From a virus: a stretch of 22,608 nt of DNA. A program made the translations under genes and the position numbers. Location: the IMG/VR virus record IMGVR_UViG_3300027741_000287, positions 1-22,608 of that record. One strand, written 5' to 3'. The first letter of the stretch is position 1; each line of letters opens with the position of its first letter. Positions 596-22,390 of the stretch are shown here, in pieces. Under the pieces are notes generated by a model. It worked only from the letters and a program-made list of their open reading frames with translations, ran no database searches and was not told where the DNA came from.

Positions 596-855
596 AAAAA
601 CCAAAAACACAAATTGAAGCAATCATCTGCTACTTGATAGCAGGCAACAACATCACATCAATTCAAGCTACTCAAAAGCAATTTGGCTATTGCACCAAAT
701 TACCTCAAAGAATTGCAGACATCATCGCACTGGGATTCTCAATCAAAAAAGAAAGAGTTACTAAACTTTCAATCTTTGGCAATAGCTGTTCCTTCATTGA
801 GTATTCTTTGGACTTCAAGAAGACATCTAAAAAGCTAATCAATAGTTACCAATGA
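592..855 (+). CDS. Small helix-turn-helix protein
   Basis: This 87-residue protein looks like the small winged-helix proteins often found beside ninG in Bacteroidetes phages (HTH_39-like). The segment at about 8-50 (an N-terminal helix, then NITSIQATQKQFG, then LPQRIADIIALGF) reads as helix, helix-turn-helix and recognition helix. It is followed by a short beta-wing region with IKKERV and FIEYSL. It overlaps ninG upstream (ATGA) and the methyltransferase downstream (ATGA at 852-855), so it is in the same translational unit. A DNA-binding role is inferred from the fold; the target is unknown. Confidence 0.6.
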   Translation: MKKPKTQIEAIICYLIAGNNITSIQATQKQFGYCTKLPQRIADIIALGFSIKKERVTKLSIFGNSCSFIEYSLDFKKTSKKLINSYQ

Positions 856-1496
856 TAGAAATAACTAACGAAGACAATATGGATTTAATGGCAAGGTATT
901 CTGACAATTATTTTGACTTAGCTATTGTTGACCCTCCTTATGGGATTGATGCTGATGTAAAAAATAGTACTGATAAAATGCAAACTAAAAAATCTAAAGC
1001 AAAATCTAAAAAATATGGTTCTCAATTATGGGATTCAGATATTCCTACGAATGAATATTTTAATGAGTTAAATAGAGTATCTAAAAAACAAATTATATGG
1101 GGTGCAAATTATTTTGGTTTAGTTGGCGGAATGATATATTGGCATAAAAATGTAACTATGCCTACTTATAGCACAGGAGAACTTGCTTGGGTTAGTTGGT
1201 TAAACAAATTAGATTTTGTAAATATATCTTGGCACGGAATGATTCAGCACGATATGAGTAATAAAGAAACTAGAATACATCCAACTCAAAAACCAGTACA
1301 ACTTTACAAATGGATTTTAGATAAATACGCAAAGCAAGGCGACAAAATACTCGATACTCATTTAGGTAGTGGCAGTATTGCAATAGCTTGCCACGATTAT
1401 GGATTTGATTTAACAGCTTGCGAATTAGACAAAGAGTATTTTGAAGCAGCAATGAAAAGGCTAAAAGACCACCAAAAACAATTAAAATTAATTTAA
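852..1496 (+). CDS. DNA methyltransferase (N6-adenine or N4-cytosine), beta-type order
   Basis: This 214-residue protein is a stand-alone site-specific DNA amino-methyltransferase using S-adenosylmethionine. The catalytic motif IV is DPPYGI at 27-32. The HPTQKP segment lies near 143-148, and the SAM-binding motif I (LDTHLGSGS) comes after it at about 166-174. Catalytic motif before SAM motif is the permuted beta-class order. The middle portion (about 40-135) would hold target recognition. Motif I reads DTHLGSG where DPFxGSG is usual. No restriction endonuclease is next to it, so protection of phage DNA or regulation is more likely than a full restriction-modification system. It overlaps the upstream gene by ATGA. 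The modified base cannot be told from the motif alone. Confidence 0.85.
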   Translation: MIEITNEDNMDLMARYSDNYFDLAIVDPPYGIDADVKNSTDKMQTKKSKAKSKKYGSQLWDSDIPTNEYFNELNRVSKKQIIWGANYFGLVGGMIYWHKNVTMPTYSTGELAWVSWLNKLDFVNISWHGMIQHDMSNKETRIHPTQKPVQLYKWILDKYAKQGDKILDTHLGSGSIAIACHDYGFDLTACELDKEYFEAAMKRLKDHQKQLKLI

Positions 1497-1706: not shown

Positions 1707-2498
1707 ATGAGCAAACTTAGAAGCATAAACACAGTAATTTGGAGTGATACTTGGTTTGAAACATTAGCAGTAGGGCAAAAATTATTATTCATTTATTTAA
1801 TTACAAATGAAAAAACTAATATGCTTGGAGTGTATGAAGTTTCAACACGCAAAATCTCATTTGAAACTGGACTTAAAGAAATTGAAATCGAAAAATATTT
1901 ACTTGACTTTGAGAAATCAAATAAAATAAAGTACAAAGAACATCGAGTTATTATGCTTAATTTCTTAAAACATCAAAATTACAATTTTAATATGATGAAA
2001 TCTGCAATAGACATTTATAATGATTTGCCATCCTCGTTAAAGATTGAAAACATTAATAAGATTGAAAGGGATAAGGAAGGGTTTGAAACCCTTTGCAAAG
2101 GGTTTGGAATGGTTCGGAAAGTAGAAGTAGAAATAGAAGAAGAAATAGAAGAAGAAGATAAAAATGAAAGTGAATTAATTTTAACACATCCACTTCAAAA
2201 TTATATTATTAGTACTTTAAAAAATGTTTCAAAATTATCCAACCAATTAACTTATGATGAATGCGTAAAACTAATGTCAAGTTATGATAGGGAAAAAATA
2301 GGCAATATATTATTGCAGATGGAAAATAAAAAGGATTTGACTAAGAAATACACATCAGTATATTTGACTGCTTCAAGTTGGCTAAAAAAAGATTTTAGCA
2401 ACAAAGGACAAAATTTGTCCAATGGTCAACCAAGCAAAATGGAATCAATGGTAAATAGCGCAAAAGAGGCTCTTAATATGATACACGATGAACAATAA
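1707..2498 (+). CDS. Phage replication initiator / DnaD-like replisome organiser
   Basis: This 263-residue protein resembles the replication proteins of Bacteroidetes phages that begin MxKLRSINTxxWxD. Such proteins bind the phage origin and help load the host replicative helicase. The N-terminal portion (about 1-105) looks like a winged-helix domain: SDTWFETLAVGQKLLFIYLIT, LGVYEVSTRKISFETGL, then the KHQN segment. A very acidic linker (EVEIEEEIEEEDKNE, about 138-153) follows, then a DnaD-like helical domain (about 160-235) with the YLTASSWLKKDF segment. The C-terminus is polar and probably flexible. It is not overlapped by its neighbours and has its own structured leader, so it is likely regulated separately. 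An origin may lie in or near the gene, but no clear iterons were seen. Confidence 0.65.
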   Translation: MSKLRSINTVIWSDTWFETLAVGQKLLFIYLITNEKTNMLGVYEVSTRKISFETGLKEIEIEKYLLDFEKSNKIKYKEHRVIMLNFLKHQNYNFNMMKSAIDIYNDLPSSLKIENINKIERDKEGFETLCKGFGMVRKVEVEIEEEIEEEDKNESELILTHPLQNYIISTLKNVSKLSNQLTYDECVKLMSSYDREKIGNILLQMENKKDLTKKYTSVYLTASSWLKKDFSNKGQNLSNGQPSKMESMVNSAKEALNMIHDEQ

Positions 2499-2541
2499 AA
2501 TATTCATTATGGCTAAAATGTCATTAAAAGCATAATATAAT

Positions 2542-2636
2542 ATATAACGTTCCCACGCTAGAAGCAGTTAGGGGATTTTCGGGACAAAGTGGGTTAAGTA
2601 CTCTTCCGCCCTAATTGCTTTTAGCGTGTGTTAGGT
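2542..2636. repeat. attC-like hairpin site 1 (integron recombination-site architecture)
   Basis: A left arm (2554-2573) and right arm (2609-2628) pair over 20 bp without interruption: 18 Watson-Crick pairs plus two G-U pairs (2561/2621 and 2567/2615). The loop is 35 nt. Outside the stem lie ATATAAC (2542-2548; one mismatch from the attC core RYYYAAC) and GTTAGGT (2630-2636; full match to GTTRRRY). The overall span of 95 bp is in the usual attC range. The left spacer GTTCC has five bases and the right spacer one base, the same layout as the second site at 3305-3405. No integron integrase gene is in the window. Confidence 0.55.
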
Positions 2637-2673
2637 GTTAGCCATTATCTCTAATTATAAAAATAAATAAACT

Positions 2674-2681
2674 TAAATTTG
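2674..2681 (+). promoter_or_regulatory. Candidate -7 box (TAAATTTG) of the first cassette-like unit
   Basis: The octamer fits TAnnTTTG and lies 13 bases before the ATG at 2695. No TTTG -33 element is visible at the right distance, and the implied leader would be very short, so support is weak. A private promoter would fit a cassette that carries its own expression signal. Confidence 0.3.
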
Positions 2682-2694
2682 TCAAAATAAAAAT

Positions 2695-3180
2695 ATGAAA
2701 AAACAACAATTTGAAATGTGTCTTGCAGAAGCAAAAGACCAACTAAAACATATTAATTCTTCAATACAAGAAACAAGGTCAAAAATATATTTTCTAATAG
2801 GCTTATTTTTTGCCATAATAGGATATTTTTCTGAGGACTTTTTTCTTTTAAAATTTGACACTTTTAAAAGTGTTATATTAATATTTACCATCCCCTTTTT
2901 TGTCTTAATATTAGTTTTTTGTAAAGAGTCTATCGTCCCTTTAAAATTAAGGTTTGATGGATTTCGTCCAGATAACTTTAAAAAGGCAATAAAAAAGGAT
3001 GACGAACAAACACAAGAAAATATTTTATTTACATATCAAGTGTCTATAGATATTAATGGAACTCATTTAACAAAATTGGCAAAAGGGTATAATAGAACTT
3101 TTAAAACTTTATTATTATGGCTATTTCTTGTCAGCTGTTTCTGTCTTTATATTTTTATCACTAAAAGTTTCAAAGCTTGA
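2695..3180 (+). CDS. Membrane protein of unknown function (cassette-like unit 1)
   Basis: This 161-residue protein has a charged, helical N-terminus (about 1-30, with EAKDQLKHINSS). Two hydrophobic segments follow at about 32-45 (YFLIGLFFAIIGYF) and 62-78 (VILIFTIPFFVLILVF). A soluble middle region with KKDDEQTQENILFTYQV comes next, and a third hydrophobic segment lies at about 140-157 (LLLWLFLVSCFCLYIFI). The layout suggests an inner-membrane protein with a cytoplasmic central loop, loosely like the SLATT type of effector-associated membrane proteins; no family was truly recognised. It is alone between two attC-like hairpins, well separated from neighbours, and does not overlap the operon on either side. 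Its membership of a cassette suggests a host- or phage-defence accessory role, which is inference. Confidence 0.6.
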   Translation: MKKQQFEMCLAEAKDQLKHINSSIQETRSKIYFLIGLFFAIIGYFSEDFFLLKFDTFKSVILIFTIPFFVLILVFCKESIVPLKLRFDGFRPDNFKKAIKKDDEQTQENILFTYQVSIDINGTHLTKLAKGYNRTFKTLLLWLFLVSCFCLYIFITKSFKA

Positions 3181-3252
3181 ACCGTTGTCTTGTGGTTTAA
3201 TAGTGGTGTCAACCTTAATAGGCTCTACTGGTGGATTGTTTTTTTCTGTCAT
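3121..3252 (-). CDS. Possible 43-residue hydrophilic protein, antisense to the end of the membrane-protein gene
   Basis: On the - strand an ATG at 3252-3250 opens a 43-codon frame ending in TAG at 3123-3121. The product is strongly hydrophilic: MTEKNNPPVEPIKVDTT, then a KPQDNGSSFETF segment, then a lysine-rich end. That composition is more protein-like than most chance antisense frames. It overlaps the last 60 bases of the convergent gene, where the other strand encodes a hydrophobic helix, and this could itself create the polar antisense composition. It lies inside the first cassette-like unit. It could be a small partner of the membrane protein or spurious. Confidence 0.3.
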   Translation of the reverse strand: MTEKNNPPVEPIKVDTTIKPQDNGSSFETFSDKNIKTETADKK

Positions 3253-3304
3253 AATAGTCTAATTTAATTTTATAAATAATATTTAAATGTTGCTAAATGG
3301 TTAC

Positions 3305-3405
3305 ACCTAACGTTTTCGGGCTTTGCGTTCGTTTTTTGCCTATCCGAATGTTCAAAGTTAGCAACAATGTTAAAGGCAAAAAATGACGCAAAACCCGTGT
3401 TATAG
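3305..3405. repeat. attC-like hairpin site 2
   Basis: Left arm 3317-3340 and right arm 3375-3397 form a long stem starting CGGG/CCCG and ending TTTTTTGCC/GGCAAAAAA. It has 23 pairs, two of them G-U, one C/A mismatch (3321/3393) and one unpaired base on the left arm (C3330). Single extrahelical bases on one arm are typical of attC sites. The stem is flanked by ACCTAAC (3305-3311; full match to RYYYAAC) and GTTATAG (3399-3405; partial match to GTTRRRY). Spacers are GTTTT on the left and a single T on the right, as in site 1, although the stem sequences differ. The span is 101 bp. Confidence 0.55.
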
Positions 3406-3414
3406 GCAGTAGGG
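3399..3414 (+). repeat. Left copy of an inverted repeat bracketing the second methyltransferase
   Basis: GTTATAGGCAGTAGGG here is the reverse complement, with one mismatch, of CCCTATTGCCTATAAC at 4282-4297. The two copies bracket the methyltransferase gene. In an integron cassette the first bases of the cassette are expected to be complementary to the 1R core near its own end, which is what is seen; here the match is longer than the core. Confidence 0.6.
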
Positions 3415-3426
3415 ATTTTTAGCAGA

Positions 3427-4212
3427 ATGTTTAATCGAAGCACTAAAGAAAAAAAAGAAAAAATGCGAAGCGAGGGAATTTTAAATACAATTTTTAATGA
3501 GGACTGCTTAATTACTATGAGCCGAATTGAAAGCGGAACAGTAGATTTAATTTTGCAAGACCCACCATACGGAACAACAGGCAATGAATGGGATATTATA
3601 CCTGATTTTGAAGTAATGTGGAAAGAATGGGAAAGGATATTAAAGCCTGATGGAATGGTAATAATGACTGCAAGCCAACCATTTACAAGCAAACTGATTT
3701 TGAGCAACGAAAAACTGTTTAAATACTGCTGGGTGTGGAATAAGAAACTTGCAGGAAATGGAATACTTGCAAAAAGGCAACCATTGAAAATACACGAAGA
3801 TGTGGTGGTATTTGGAAAAGGAACTTGCAGATACAACCCAATAAAACGAAAAGGAGTTTATAGGGCAAAAGGTGGAATAACTGACAAGCACGGAACTTTT
3901 AATGGTGCAGGAAGTGAAATAACATTTAATGATGAATACTACCCTGAAAGCATTATTGATTTTTCGGGTGCAGGAATGAGAAGCGATAGAATACACCCAA
4001 CTGAAAAGCCGATTGATTTAATGCGGTATATGATACAAACATACACGCAGGAAGGAGAAATAGTGTTTGATGGATATATGGGAAGCGGAACGACTGCACA
4101 CGCCTGTATAACTGAAAAACGCAAATACATAGGAAGCGAAATGAATGAACAATTTTATAAATTATTAAATGAACGACTTGAACGAGAATACTCTCAACCC
4201 AAATTGTTTTGA
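3427..4212 (+). CDS. DNA methyltransferase (N6-adenine or N4-cytosine), cassette-like unit 2
   Basis: This 261-residue enzyme transfers a methyl group from S-adenosylmethionine to an exocyclic amino group in DNA. Motif IV is DPPYGT at 45-50, preceded by NEDCLITMSRIESGTVDLILQ. HPTEKP lies at about 190-195, and motif I (FDGYMGSGTT) follows at about 214-223, again the permuted beta order. It has a fuller central recognition region (about 75-185) than the first methyltransferase, and the two are not obvious duplicates. The start at 3427 adds a lysine/glutamate-rich lead (residues 1-13); an internal ATG at 3463 is an alternative start. It has no partner nuclease. It sits alone between attC-like site 2 and an inverted repeat, unlike the overlapping genes elsewhere, so it looks like an acquired accessory gene. 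Confidence 0.85.
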   Translation: MFNRSTKEKKEKMRSEGILNTIFNEDCLITMSRIESGTVDLILQDPPYGTTGNEWDIIPDFEVMWKEWERILKPDGMVIMTASQPFTSKLILSNEKLFKYCWVWNKKLAGNGILAKRQPLKIHEDVVVFGKGTCRYNPIKRKGVYRAKGGITDKHGTFNGAGSEITFNDEYYPESIIDFSGAGMRSDRIHPTEKPIDLMRYMIQTYTQEGEIVFDGYMGSGTTAHACITEKRKYIGSEMNEQFYKLLNERLEREYSQPKLF

Positions 4213-4229
4213 AAAAACAAAAGAAGCGT

Positions 4230-4285
4230 GGGGCATTTTTTCTTTTTTTTCTTCCACAAATGTTGAAACGAAGAACGTCTGCCCT
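4230..4285 (+). other. Imperfect hairpin after the second methyltransferase
   Basis: GGGGCA (4230-4235) can pair with TGCCCT (4280-4285), and TTCTTC (4249-4254) with GAAGAA (4270-4275), leaving a 15-base tip. The two paired blocks are separated by a long T-rich strand on the left. It lies just past the stop codon and may act in transcript ending or belong to a degraded recombination site. It is not a clean intrinsic terminator because no T run follows. Confidence 0.35.
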
Positions 4286-4297
4286 ATTGCCTATAAC
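4282..4297 (-). repeat. Right copy of the inverted repeat; possible truncated third attC core
   Basis: CCCTATTGCCTATAAC pairs with 3399-3414 with 15 of 16 matches. Its end, GCCTATAAC, resembles the RYYYAAC core at the start of an attC site. The hairpin expected after such a core is missing: a promoter begins two bases later. This point therefore looks like the right-hand junction of the inserted island. Confidence 0.5.
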
Positions 4298-16631: not shown

Positions 16632-17639
16632 ATGGCAATAGATAAGAGAATACCCATTTATAGATTTGTAGTTGGTGAGGATGATGAAGCAGGAGTTACC
16701 GCAGTTGCATTAGTTGATAATCCTGCAATCGAGATGAATTGGCAAGCATTCGCAGCAAGTAAAATATCATTTGATTTCGATGACACACTTTCAACTTTAA
16801 GAGGTCAAGAATTAGCACAGCAATTAATTGATAAGGGTGCAATAATCTATGTTATATCTGCACGCCAAGATGTGCAAGGTATGCTTAAAACTGCAAAAGA
16901 CTTAGGCATTCCTGAATCAAGATTATTCGCAACAGGAAGCAATAAGGCAAAGATTGAAAAGGTTAAATCATTAGGCATAACAAAGCATTACGATAATAAC
17001 GCTGATGTCATTAAAGAATTAGGCAGCATAGGTAGCAAGTTCGTAATGGATAAAATCACTTGTTCTAATTGTGGGCATACTTGGATGGTTGCCGATGGTG
17101 GCGAAGACCCTTATAAGTGCAATATGTGCGGAATGGAAAATCAATTTATTGTTGAGCTAAAACAGATTGACCAAAAGATGAGCAAGTTTTCATCTAATAA
17201 AGAAAAGAAAATAATAAGCGGTGCATTGATGGTGGCAGATTTACCAATATATCGCAAAGATGAACAAGGCGAATATTATGGATTATTTACAGCCGAAGAC
17301 ATTTACAATATCCGAAACAAGTTCTTTAAAAATAATAATACCAAATCGGTTAATGAAATGCACGACCCAAACAAGATGGTTGAAGGAGTGTATATGATTG
17401 AATCATTTATTATAGATAGTAAAAGAGGAATAAATGCACCTGATGGGTTGAAGCTAACAGATGGTTCATGGTTTGGTAGCTATAAAGTAGACAATGAAGA
17501 TATATGGAACTACTTTATAAAGTCAGGCGAGTTCAAAGGATTTAGTGTTGAGGGTGTATTTAAGACCACTAAGATTGATGCTAAGCCACTATCTATAATA
17601 AAGCAAGCTATTGACATCATAAAGCAAATTGAAGACTAA
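16632..17639 (+). CDS. XkdF-like prohead protease with inserted HAD and zinc-ribbon domains
   Basis: This 335-residue protein is a composite. Residues 1-42 (IPIYRFVVGEDDEAGVTAVALVDNPAIE) look like the first strands of a phage prohead protease. Residues 44-131 form a HAD-like phosphohydrolase domain: FDFDDTL with D48 and D50, S76 in VISAR, K107, and the acidic HYDNNADV at 119-126. Residues 144-166 form a zinc ribbon (C144, C147, C163, C166). Residues 190-330 resume the XkdF-type protease with ISGALMVADLPIYR, a candidate catalytic His in NEMHD (H244) and Ser in GFSVEG (S305). It would process scaffold and capsid subunits. Its gene sits just before the scaffold candidate and major capsid genes. 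The extra domains have no known role in this setting. Confidence 0.75.
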   Translation: MAIDKRIPIYRFVVGEDDEAGVTAVALVDNPAIEMNWQAFAASKISFDFDDTLSTLRGQELAQQLIDKGAIIYVISARQDVQGMLKTAKDLGIPESRLFATGSNKAKIEKVKSLGITKHYDNNADVIKELGSIGSKFVMDKITCSNCGHTWMVADGGEDPYKCNMCGMENQFIVELKQIDQKMSKFSSNKEKKIISGALMVADLPIYRKDEQGEYYGLFTAEDIYNIRNKFFKNNNTKSVNEMHDPNKMVEGVYMIESFIIDSKRGINAPDGLKLTDGSWFGSYKVDNEDIWNYFIKSGEFKGFSVEGVFKTTKIDAKPLSIIKQAIDIIKQIED

Positions 17640-20386: not shown

Positions 20387-22390
20387 ATGACAGATAAAAA
20401 AGAATATAATCCAAGTGTAATGGTGCTTAAATTTACGAATGATAAAGTGCCTGCATTTGTTGAGCCTAAGTCTTCGCAAAGATTGAAGTATGTTAAGTAT
20501 GGAGAGAACAATAACTACCCAAACTTTTTATTAACTTTATTCAATAGAAGTGCAAAGCATAACGCAATTTTAACAAGCAAGCAGCAATACATAACAGGTC
20601 AAGGTTGGATGTTTGATGAATTAGGAATGCAAGGCGAAGAAGTAGTGGCATTGAAAGCGTTTATAGACAATCCTAATCCTTACGAAACATTAAAAGACTT
20701 ATTAAATAAAACAGATTTAGATAATGAGATATTTGGAGGTTGTTACCTTAAAATTGTAAGCGACAAAAAGGGTGGAATTTCAGAAATTTATCACGTTAAT
20801 TATTGTGATGTAAGAAGCACAGAAGATAACAGCGAATTTTATATAAGCGATAAATGGTTAAATAGTGAAGGTGGCGAAAATACTAACATCAAAGAAGATG
20901 AATATAAGACCTTGCCACCATTCGACCCAAGTTTAAAAAAGCTACCGAGTGAAAGTATCTATTATTACAAATCGTATCGACCTAACATCAATACTTATAC
21001 ACTACCCGAGTATATTGGTGCAATTCCTGCAATTATTACTGATGCTGAAATAGCAAATTTTCACAGAGCCGAAATTCAAAATAGTTTCAAGGGTTCTAAA
21101 ATGATTGTATTCAAGAATGGTGTCCCTTCAGACGAGGAAATGAAGTCAACTGAACGCAAGTTAAAAGCTAAGTTCACACCAACTGACAATGCAGGGAGTA
21201 TAGTAATTGATTTTGTAGATGACCCGCAAAGAGTACCCGAAATATTAGACCTTGCATCAGGAGATTTTGATAAGAAATATCAAGCATTAAACGATACTAT
21301 TCAACAAGAGATATTTGTAGGACATAAGATTACATCACCAATGTTATTTGGAGTCAGAGTAGAGGGTCAATTAGGTGGGCGAAATGAAATGGTTGATGCT
21401 TACAATTTATTCGCTAACACTTACGTTAATCCAAAACAAAGAATACAAGAAGAAATTTATAACCTATTCGCACCGGTAAAGGGAAAGCTAAAAATAAAAG
21501 CATTAGAACCAATCATGCCAAGTTTTAGCGAGCAAACTTTAATGACAATTCTAACAAAGGATGAAATGAGGGAAATCATAGGTAGAAAACCATTAGACAT
21601 TCAAACTAATGTAAATTCAACCATTAGCGATGCTTTAAATTCGTTAAGTCCATTAGTTGCAAATAAGGTATTATCTTCATTAAGTCAAGATGAAATAAGA
21701 GGCATTGTAAACAAACCACCATTAGCAGCCGATGCAGTTCTACCAACAGATACAACAGCGCAATTCTCAAAGTGTTCACATGATGAAATAGCAGATGATG
21801 ATTTGGACTTTAGTATATTCTCAAAGTATGGTGAACCTATCGAGAATTTTGTAAGCATTAAGCATAAGAAATTCATATTTAGCACGCAGCAATTCGCATT
21901 GAGCAAACAAGATAATGGGGTATTAGATTTAATTCAGAAAACACCTAATATCACCATTGAAGAACTAACCAAGATTTTAAAGACAGATAAGACCTCAATC
22001 ATTGAAAGTTTGACAGCATTAGGGGATGAAGGTTTAATTGATTTAGATAGTCAAGGCAAAATAAGTTTAACAAGGTCAGGAACAAATAAAGTAGTGCCAA
22101 GTTTTGAAGAGTTATATATCCGTTATAGATACGTTTTAAGACCTGATGCACCTGCATTAGTTAAAGGTGGGTCAAGTAGACCTTTTTGTGAAGCAATGAT
22201 GGCAAATCCTCGTTATTTTTCAAAGGATGACATTGATAAAATTGGTCAAGAATTAGGGGCGATTTATGGAATACCTAACTATGATGCTTTTCGTAGAAGG
22301 GGTGGATGGTATCACGACCCGAAACAAGATGTAAATTTACCTTTTTGTAGACATATTTGGTCACAAGAATTAGTTAAGAAAATAAGATAA
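20387..22390 (+). CDS. Portal protein fused to a winged helix and a MuF-like C-terminal domain
   Basis: This 667-residue protein is larger than a plain portal. Residues about 1-400 form the portal: RLKYVKYGENNNYPNFLLTLF (about 28-48), then a YITGQGW stretch and DLDNEIFGGCYLKI (about 110-123), then the clip/stem region with HKITSPMLFGVRVEG. Residues about 505-568 look like a winged helix (GVLDLIQKTPNITIEELTKIL, then IIESLTALGDEGLIDL). Residues about 575-667 form a MuF-like domain: YIRYRYVLRPDAP, RPFCEAMM (C601), DIDKIGQELGAIYG, RRGGWYHDP, and a final FCRHIW (C654, H656, W658). The portal is the ring for DNA passage and motor docking. It begins right after the previous stop and overlaps the adaptor gene by one base. 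Confidence 0.75.
   Translation: MTDKKEYNPSVMVLKFTNDKVPAFVEPKSSQRLKYVKYGENNNYPNFLLTLFNRSAKHNAILTSKQQYITGQGWMFDELGMQGEEVVALKAFIDNPNPYETLKDLLNKTDLDNEIFGGCYLKIVSDKKGGISEIYHVNYCDVRSTEDNSEFYISDKWLNSEGGENTNIKEDEYKTLPPFDPSLKKLPSESIYYYKSYRPNINTYTLPEYIGAIPAIITDAEIANFHRAEIQNSFKGSKMIVFKNGVPSDEEMKSTERKLKAKFTPTDNAGSIVIDFVDDPQRVPEILDLASGDFDKKYQALNDTIQQEIFVGHKITSPMLFGVRVEGQLGGRNEMVDAYNLFANTYVNPKQRIQEEIYNLFAPVKGKLKIKALEPIMPSFSEQTLMTILTKDEMREIIGRKPLDIQTNVNSTISDALNSLSPLVANKVLSSLSQDEIRGIVNKPPLAADAVLPTDTTAQFSKCSHDEIADDDLDFSIFSKYGEPIENFVSIKHKKFIFSTQQFALSKQDNGVLDLIQKTPNITIEELTKILKTDKTSIIESLTALGDEGLIDLDSQGKISLTRSGTNKVVPSFEELYIRYRYVLRPDAPALVKGGSSRPFCEAMMANPRYFSKDDIDKIGQELGAIYGIPNYDAFRRRGGWYHDPKQDVNLPFCRHIWSQELVKKIR

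Follow-up and report, generated by a model that had tools for sequence, protein, structure and literature searches.

The prohead protease encoded in the window, that is, in the whole stretch of 22,608 nucleotides of viral DNA analysed here, is a socket: small self-contained domains (cassettes) are gained and lost at the linker that joins its N-terminal strands to its core and, in other clades, at its C-terminus. This follows from the presence of other small domains, or of none, at the same spot in close relatives. In the window the slot holds a HAD domain followed by a zinc ribbon.

The cassette slot of the protease

The open reading frame at 16632-17639 (plus strand) encodes a protein of 335 amino acids of a tailed phage and lies in the head gene cluster, flanked by a tape-measure-like gene and by putative scaffold and major capsid genes. 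The portal gene (20387-22390) was identified by PHROG, and the reading frames between protease and portal may be described, from their position, as scaffold-like and capsid-like. The Pfam family PF14550 (Peptidase_S78_2/XkdF) covers residues 186-312 with a score of 50.8 bits, where the cut-off is 24 (E = 2.1e-13); by this match the protein belongs to the XkdF proteases, with a putative proteolytic role in proheads. The core (residues 186-314; 17187-17573, plus strand) contains the candidate catalytic residues His244 and Ser305, both invariant in 26 full-length relatives and also in 13 diverse cores. The N-terminal conserved segment (residues 1-40, ending in EMNWQAF; 16632-16751, plus strand) is kept in relatives with or without inserts. 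In insert-free relatives it runs straight into the core, and the intervening region of the window protein is therefore an insert between two parts of one protease. An earlier note on this DNA had described an XkdF-type protease split by a HAD domain and a zinc ribbon, placed between its first strands and its catalytic part; the Pfam core match, the predicted HAD fold, the conserved cysteines and the direct joining of N-terminal segment and core in insert-free relatives all bear this out. A chimeric or misassembled gene was ruled out, as the architecture is repeated in independent metagenome contigs. Relatives were found in assemblies of Flaviramulus, Psychroflexus and Chitinophagaceae and in Nonlabens phages, an occurrence that points to a host among the Bacteroidota. 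Two further genes of the window (852-1496 and 3427-4212) resemble DNA methyltransferases and contain DPPY motifs.

Seventy-eight relatives from IMG/VR agree in their N-terminal segment (..IEMNWQAF) and in their core, while the content between them varies. About half of these loci carry no cassette at all, so the cassettes are dispensable. The names used here for the cassettes (HAD, ZnR, ESED, DYP, MPHY and HiPIP-like) were coined in this analysis. ESED (about 45 amino acids, ..ESEDEFISRC..W) and DYP (about 97 amino acids, ..DYPxAAxENA..WGGDEGIEWA) are both short and helical and the HiPIP-like cassette is Cys-rich; being small, Cys-rich or helical, several of the cassettes resemble binding modules more than enzymes. 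Among full-length relatives the slot was found to be empty or to contain HAD-ZnR, HAD-ZnR-ESED, HAD-ZnR-ESED-DYP, ZnR, ZnR-ESED, ZnR-DYP, DYP, ESED-DYP, ESED-HAD, ESED-HAD-DYP, ESED-DYP-HAD, DYP-HAD-ESED and more. A search with HAD only retrieved 80 loci with new orders, including ESED-HiPIP-HAD-DYP, and a fixed cassette order, which the first 78 loci had suggested, was rejected on these grounds. Together the loci yielded more than 30 architectures, with up to six segments per protein; the loci were found with window-protein, HAD or DYP patterns, and architecture frequencies accordingly describe an enriched sample. Rarer pieces, which sit in the slot or C-terminally, include KTSC (PF13619), DUF3721, DUF5824-like, a domain that is cupredoxin-like by eye, an RPFC domain and a GNAT acetyltransferase. 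In another XkdF clade, sampled by its core, the N-side slot was unused in all 82 members, and 27 of them had DYP as a C-terminal piece; use of the slot is thus clade-specific. Taken over the loci sampled, a recurrent cassette slot in XkdF-type proteases is as good as certain.

Parsimony on a 127-row tree of the N-terminal segment and core requires the slot content to change 44 times or more, a figure that describes the enriched sample and comes from a quick tree in which 46 of 123 inner branches are weak. By cassette, at least 11 changes are needed for HAD, 23 for DYP, 14 for ESED and 6 for ZnR on the same tree. Within a well supported group of 12 rows that contains the window, six different slot contents occur, and in one pair of loci (L091 and L104) the N-terminal segment and core are identical while the slot contents differ. 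Silent-site divergence between the window and L002 amounts to 0.09 in HAD, a value that comes from five changes, versus 0.45 in the core, which is in line with separate histories of the two parts.

The zinc-ribbon cassette of the window (residues 140-172; 17049-17147, plus strand) shows a weak match to PF19134. That a four-Cys ribbon follows the HAD domain, as had been proposed, agrees with the conservation of its cysteines (C144, C147, C163 and C166), which are kept in 11 of 11 distinct copies; in four loci (L019, L024, L028 and L036) the ribbon occurs without HAD. Downstream of it lies a scar (residues 176-182; 17155-17177, plus strand), consisting of the C-terminal tail LKQIDQK of a DYP cassette after an in-frame deletion, as seen by comparing the junction with L018 and L004, both of which retain the whole DYP cassette. 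The ribbon is thus fused to the DYP tail (..NQFIVE|LKQIDQKM..). In comparisons with relatives that bear other cassettes, nucleotide homology breaks at 16750/16751 and is back from 17155. A comparable event is found in L003, where a DYP piece was deleted in-frame across a 6-nt CAAAAG repeat.

The HAD domain and its active site

The HAD cassette occupies residues 41-137 (16752-17042, plus strand). Searches of the whole protein against Pfam, NCBIfam and PDB sequences found no HAD, and the Pfam HAD models scored below the cut-off; profile libraries miss the domain or match it weakly, and it was revealed by relatives and structure. The structure prediction that the earlier note had called for gave a Rossmannoid HAD fold: AlphaFold, run on the domain alone with an alignment of relatives, reached a pLDDT of 98.4, and the full-length protein reached 80.6, where most of the HAD blocks exceeded 80 and many exceeded 90. 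The predicted structure has no cap insertion. Comparison with VIA-align (residues 41-138) matched the T4 Pnkp 3'-phosphatase with Z 11.2 and an rmsd of 2.0 Å over 95 residues, and a second comparison with T4 Pnkp phosphatase gave Z 10.4 and an rmsd of 1.9 over 91 residues. The top ranks are shared by the T4 Pnkp 3'-phosphatase, phosphoserine phosphatase, other HADs and universal stress proteins. Because of the tie with the last of these, it is the DxD...S/T...K...D motifs that decide for HAD, and by motifs and predicted fold together the domain is a member of the HAD superfamily.

Weak profile links connect the domain with nucleotidase and 5'-nucleotidase families and with polynucleotide kinase; two of 22 members match a polynucleotide kinase PHROG weakly (best E = 0.008), and T4 Pnkp was absent from the profile matches in PDB sequences. 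Filing the domain as Pnkp was set aside, since no match to a kinase domain was obtained in the window protein and identity to the T4 Pnkp phosphatase is 17-18%. A host origin of the domain was likewise rejected after genome scans with the HAD profile, in which no relative was confirmed; 395 genomes of one host phylum yielded five weak HAD matches only, and XkdF was present in 5 of the same 395 genomes.

The earlier note had numbered the motif residues as D48, D50, S76, K107 and D121/D125. The numbering is right and the first five positions are conserved, with D48, S/T76 and K107 kept in 69 of 69 distinct copies and D50 and D121 in 68 of 69; position 125, however, varies (D in 40 and E in 12 of the 69). 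Free variation of the catalytic aspartates, which would have spoken against the proposal, was thus looked for and not seen. R78 and H119 are invariant in the same 69 copies. As the search patterns contain motif I and the DNN motif, conserved copies are favoured in this sample. Among close copies dN/dS lies between 0.08 and 0.16, and a median of 0.16 was obtained over 37 usable pairs of diverse copies, with pairs involving L020 left out on account of an alignment offset by one codon. Motif residues conserved at 99-100% and these dN/dS values sustain the view that the domain looks active, and the window HAD is very probably an active phosphohydrolase; given purifying selection and an intact active site, a Mg-dependent enzyme is most likely. 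Capless HADs act on large substrates or have their site closed by oligomerising. With no cap and with the T4 polynucleotide 3'-phosphatase among the closest structural matches, a nucleic-acid-end or nucleotide phosphate is the favoured candidate substrate, a choice made tentatively since a fold tied with several others does not fix the substrate.

Carriers beyond the XkdF slot

The HAD cassette was also identified as a C-terminal addition to XkdF proteases (L118, L120 and L121) and to a portal (L124, assigned as portal by PHROG with E = 7e-63), and on the N-side of S78 proteases (L139, L144 and L148-L150; PF04586 in L144, E = 3e-19). In four further loci (L112, L116, L129 and L138) it is encoded as a small stand-alone gene, at times together with ESED, a few genes at most from terminase, so the domain need not be attached to a protease in order to work. 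Stand-alone HAD genes were seen directly upstream of terminase genes, with a ParB-like neighbour in L112 and L129. The idea of one fused protein therefore holds for the window, where the fusion is present, but the HAD part is an interchangeable cassette that occurs on other head proteins and alone.

The DYP cassette reaches haloarchaeal viruses, being present in the prohead protease of HGTV-1 (63.5% identity over 92 amino acids) and in a portal-MuF protein of HRTV-28. The carriers sampled are mostly prohead-interior proteins. In HGTV-1 gp11 (L320, 1636-4302) and the HRTV-28 portal (L321, 1381-4800), DYP is 56-64% identical to that of Bacteroidota-type phages and is accompanied by other Cys/His-rich pieces. 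S-CBS1 gp04 (L322, 2899-5409) and a CRP-406 protein (L324, 2534-4918), for both of which the annotation reads major capsid protein, join an N-terminal DYP to an S78 protease and a capsid protein. One XkdF protease (L041, 4959-5969) bears a C-terminal GNAT acetyltransferase (PF13508, E = 1e-6) attached via a GGPGSGPQGGEG linker. The portal of the window (20387-22390) has a C-terminal winged-helix (about 21917-22051) and an RPFC/MuF-C-like Cys-His domain (about 22175-22381), and the RPFC domain is also found within the protease slots of L251, L265 and L285.

Possible roles of the cassettes

Domain fusions on portal and MuF proteins are already known and have been proposed as delivered effectors (PMC5512222). 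What is added here is a recurrent socket in a prohead protease whose content turns over faster than the core sequence, together with the recurrence of its cassettes on further head proteins, both of phages and of archaeal viruses. In the literature searched, where subscription journals are thinly covered and absence is weak evidence, no description of XkdF proteases with cassettes was found. The window protein resembles XkdF/PF14550 proteases in its core, in the conserved His and Ser positions and in its place in the head gene cluster; it is unlike the Pfam model, which consists of the core only, in having HAD and a ribbon in a slot of variable content before the core. With the 3'-phosphatase of T4 polynucleotide kinase-phosphatase (5uj0) it shares the HAD fold and motifs, but its domain is shorter as well as distant in sequence. 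Like the polyvalent proteins and MuF-portal effectors described in the main text of PMC5512222, it combines several disparate domains (protease, HAD and ribbon) in one head-associated polypeptide among virion genes; unlike them, as that text presents them, its carrier is a prohead protease. The same main text mentions neither a zinc ribbon nor XkdF and, in the passages covered, uses "had" as a verb only. Domains are also shuffled within phage proteins in the domain mosaicism treated in PMC10684548, in whose main text the word protease is absent.

The cassettes may be cargo of the prohead or virion, a reading that we favour with reserve, and the same reserve applies to a protease that would be both socket and cargo carrier. 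The protease, which needs to enter the prohead for its own job, would carry the cassette domains in; its own proteolysis would then free them; and some would stay with the DNA and be ejected into the next host, or would act on DNA inside the head. Such a route, and with it the injection that the earlier note had raised beside a putative trimming of nucleotides or phosphates in the head, is plausible by analogy with MuF and portal fusions and with the internal proteins of T4, which are processed in the prohead and then enter the host (PMC9026906). Prohead entry, processing and exit with the DNA are common to the proposed route and to the T4 internal proteins and Alt, although the T4 cargo consists of separate proteins with a short capsid-targeting peptide and not of domains internal to a protease (PMC9026906). 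Weighing against cargo are the many relatives that lack any cassette, the difference in slot use between clades, the resemblance of several cassettes to binding modules and the existence of stand-alone HAD genes. The fullest version, in which the Bacteroidota-type prohead protease would be a cargo platform with autoproteolytic release and DNA-borne delivery, and HAD a virion-borne nucleic-acid-end phosphatase repairing or countering host damage early in infection, is rather unlikely when all of its parts are taken together.

Two other explanations, each of them unlikely, concern when and where the cassettes would act. They could be assembly adaptors that attach to scaffold, shell, portal or DNA and adjust the place or timing of the protease in the growing prohead; while assembly proceeds, HAD would be a module for binding or an enzyme of local action, and it would be degraded later. 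Most of the sampled carriers are indeed assembly proteins (protease, portal and protease-capsid fusion), the ribbon, ESED and DYP have no recognisable enzymatic motif and several cassettes are helical or Cys-rich; on the other hand, near-identical cores lack cassettes or swap them freely, which is unusual for an assembly interface, and the HAD active site is complete in 69 copies, also outside proteases. Alternatively, HAD might act late in the infected cell, in nucleotide or nucleic-acid metabolism, and owe its fusion only to strong late expression of head genes and an insert-tolerant linker. The stand-alone genes near terminase and the weak profile matches to families of nucleotidases and 5'-nucleotidases would suit such a cytoplasmic enzyme, which nevertheless leaves unexplained why many unrelated domains sit on prohead-interior proteins of bacterial phages and archaeal viruses.

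That the linker is simply a soft spot, filled through illegitimate recombination by domains without a selected function, appears improbable. The 44 or more content changes, the deletion at the CAAAAG repeat in L003 and the scar in the window speak for it, but dN/dS in HAD is low, the catalytic residues are invariant and what recurs is a small set of cassettes, not random sequence. Least probable is an insert that plugs or spaces the protease and holds back its folding or activity until the insert is cleaved and removed. Its location between the N-terminal strands and the core would be apt, and junctions in many loci are rich in F-A/F-S pairs (HFAG, KFAE), which are possible protease sites or recombination seams; insert-free relatives are common, however, and other clades load the C-terminus. 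Junctions hold 103 F-A/F-S pairs in 3110 letters and domain interiors 205 in 29714, an enrichment that is not an independent count because the junctions share ancestry, and as cleavage sites they are suggestive. Returning to the cargo reading, the slot content would, if it holds, be a catalogue of candidate virion-delivered functions readable from sequence; if the cassettes are not cargo, their turnover still offers a clean way to test which inserts such a protease will accept.

In L125/L126 a protease ORF ending in ESED (1942-3675) overlaps a DYP-HAD ORF in another frame (3593-4291), possibly a frameshift fusion or a recent break. A viral protein in BFVD (A0A6J5KKZ6) that matches over XkdF bears the annotation "zeta toxin domain containing"; a protease with a kinase cassette would be in keeping with the idea of a slot.
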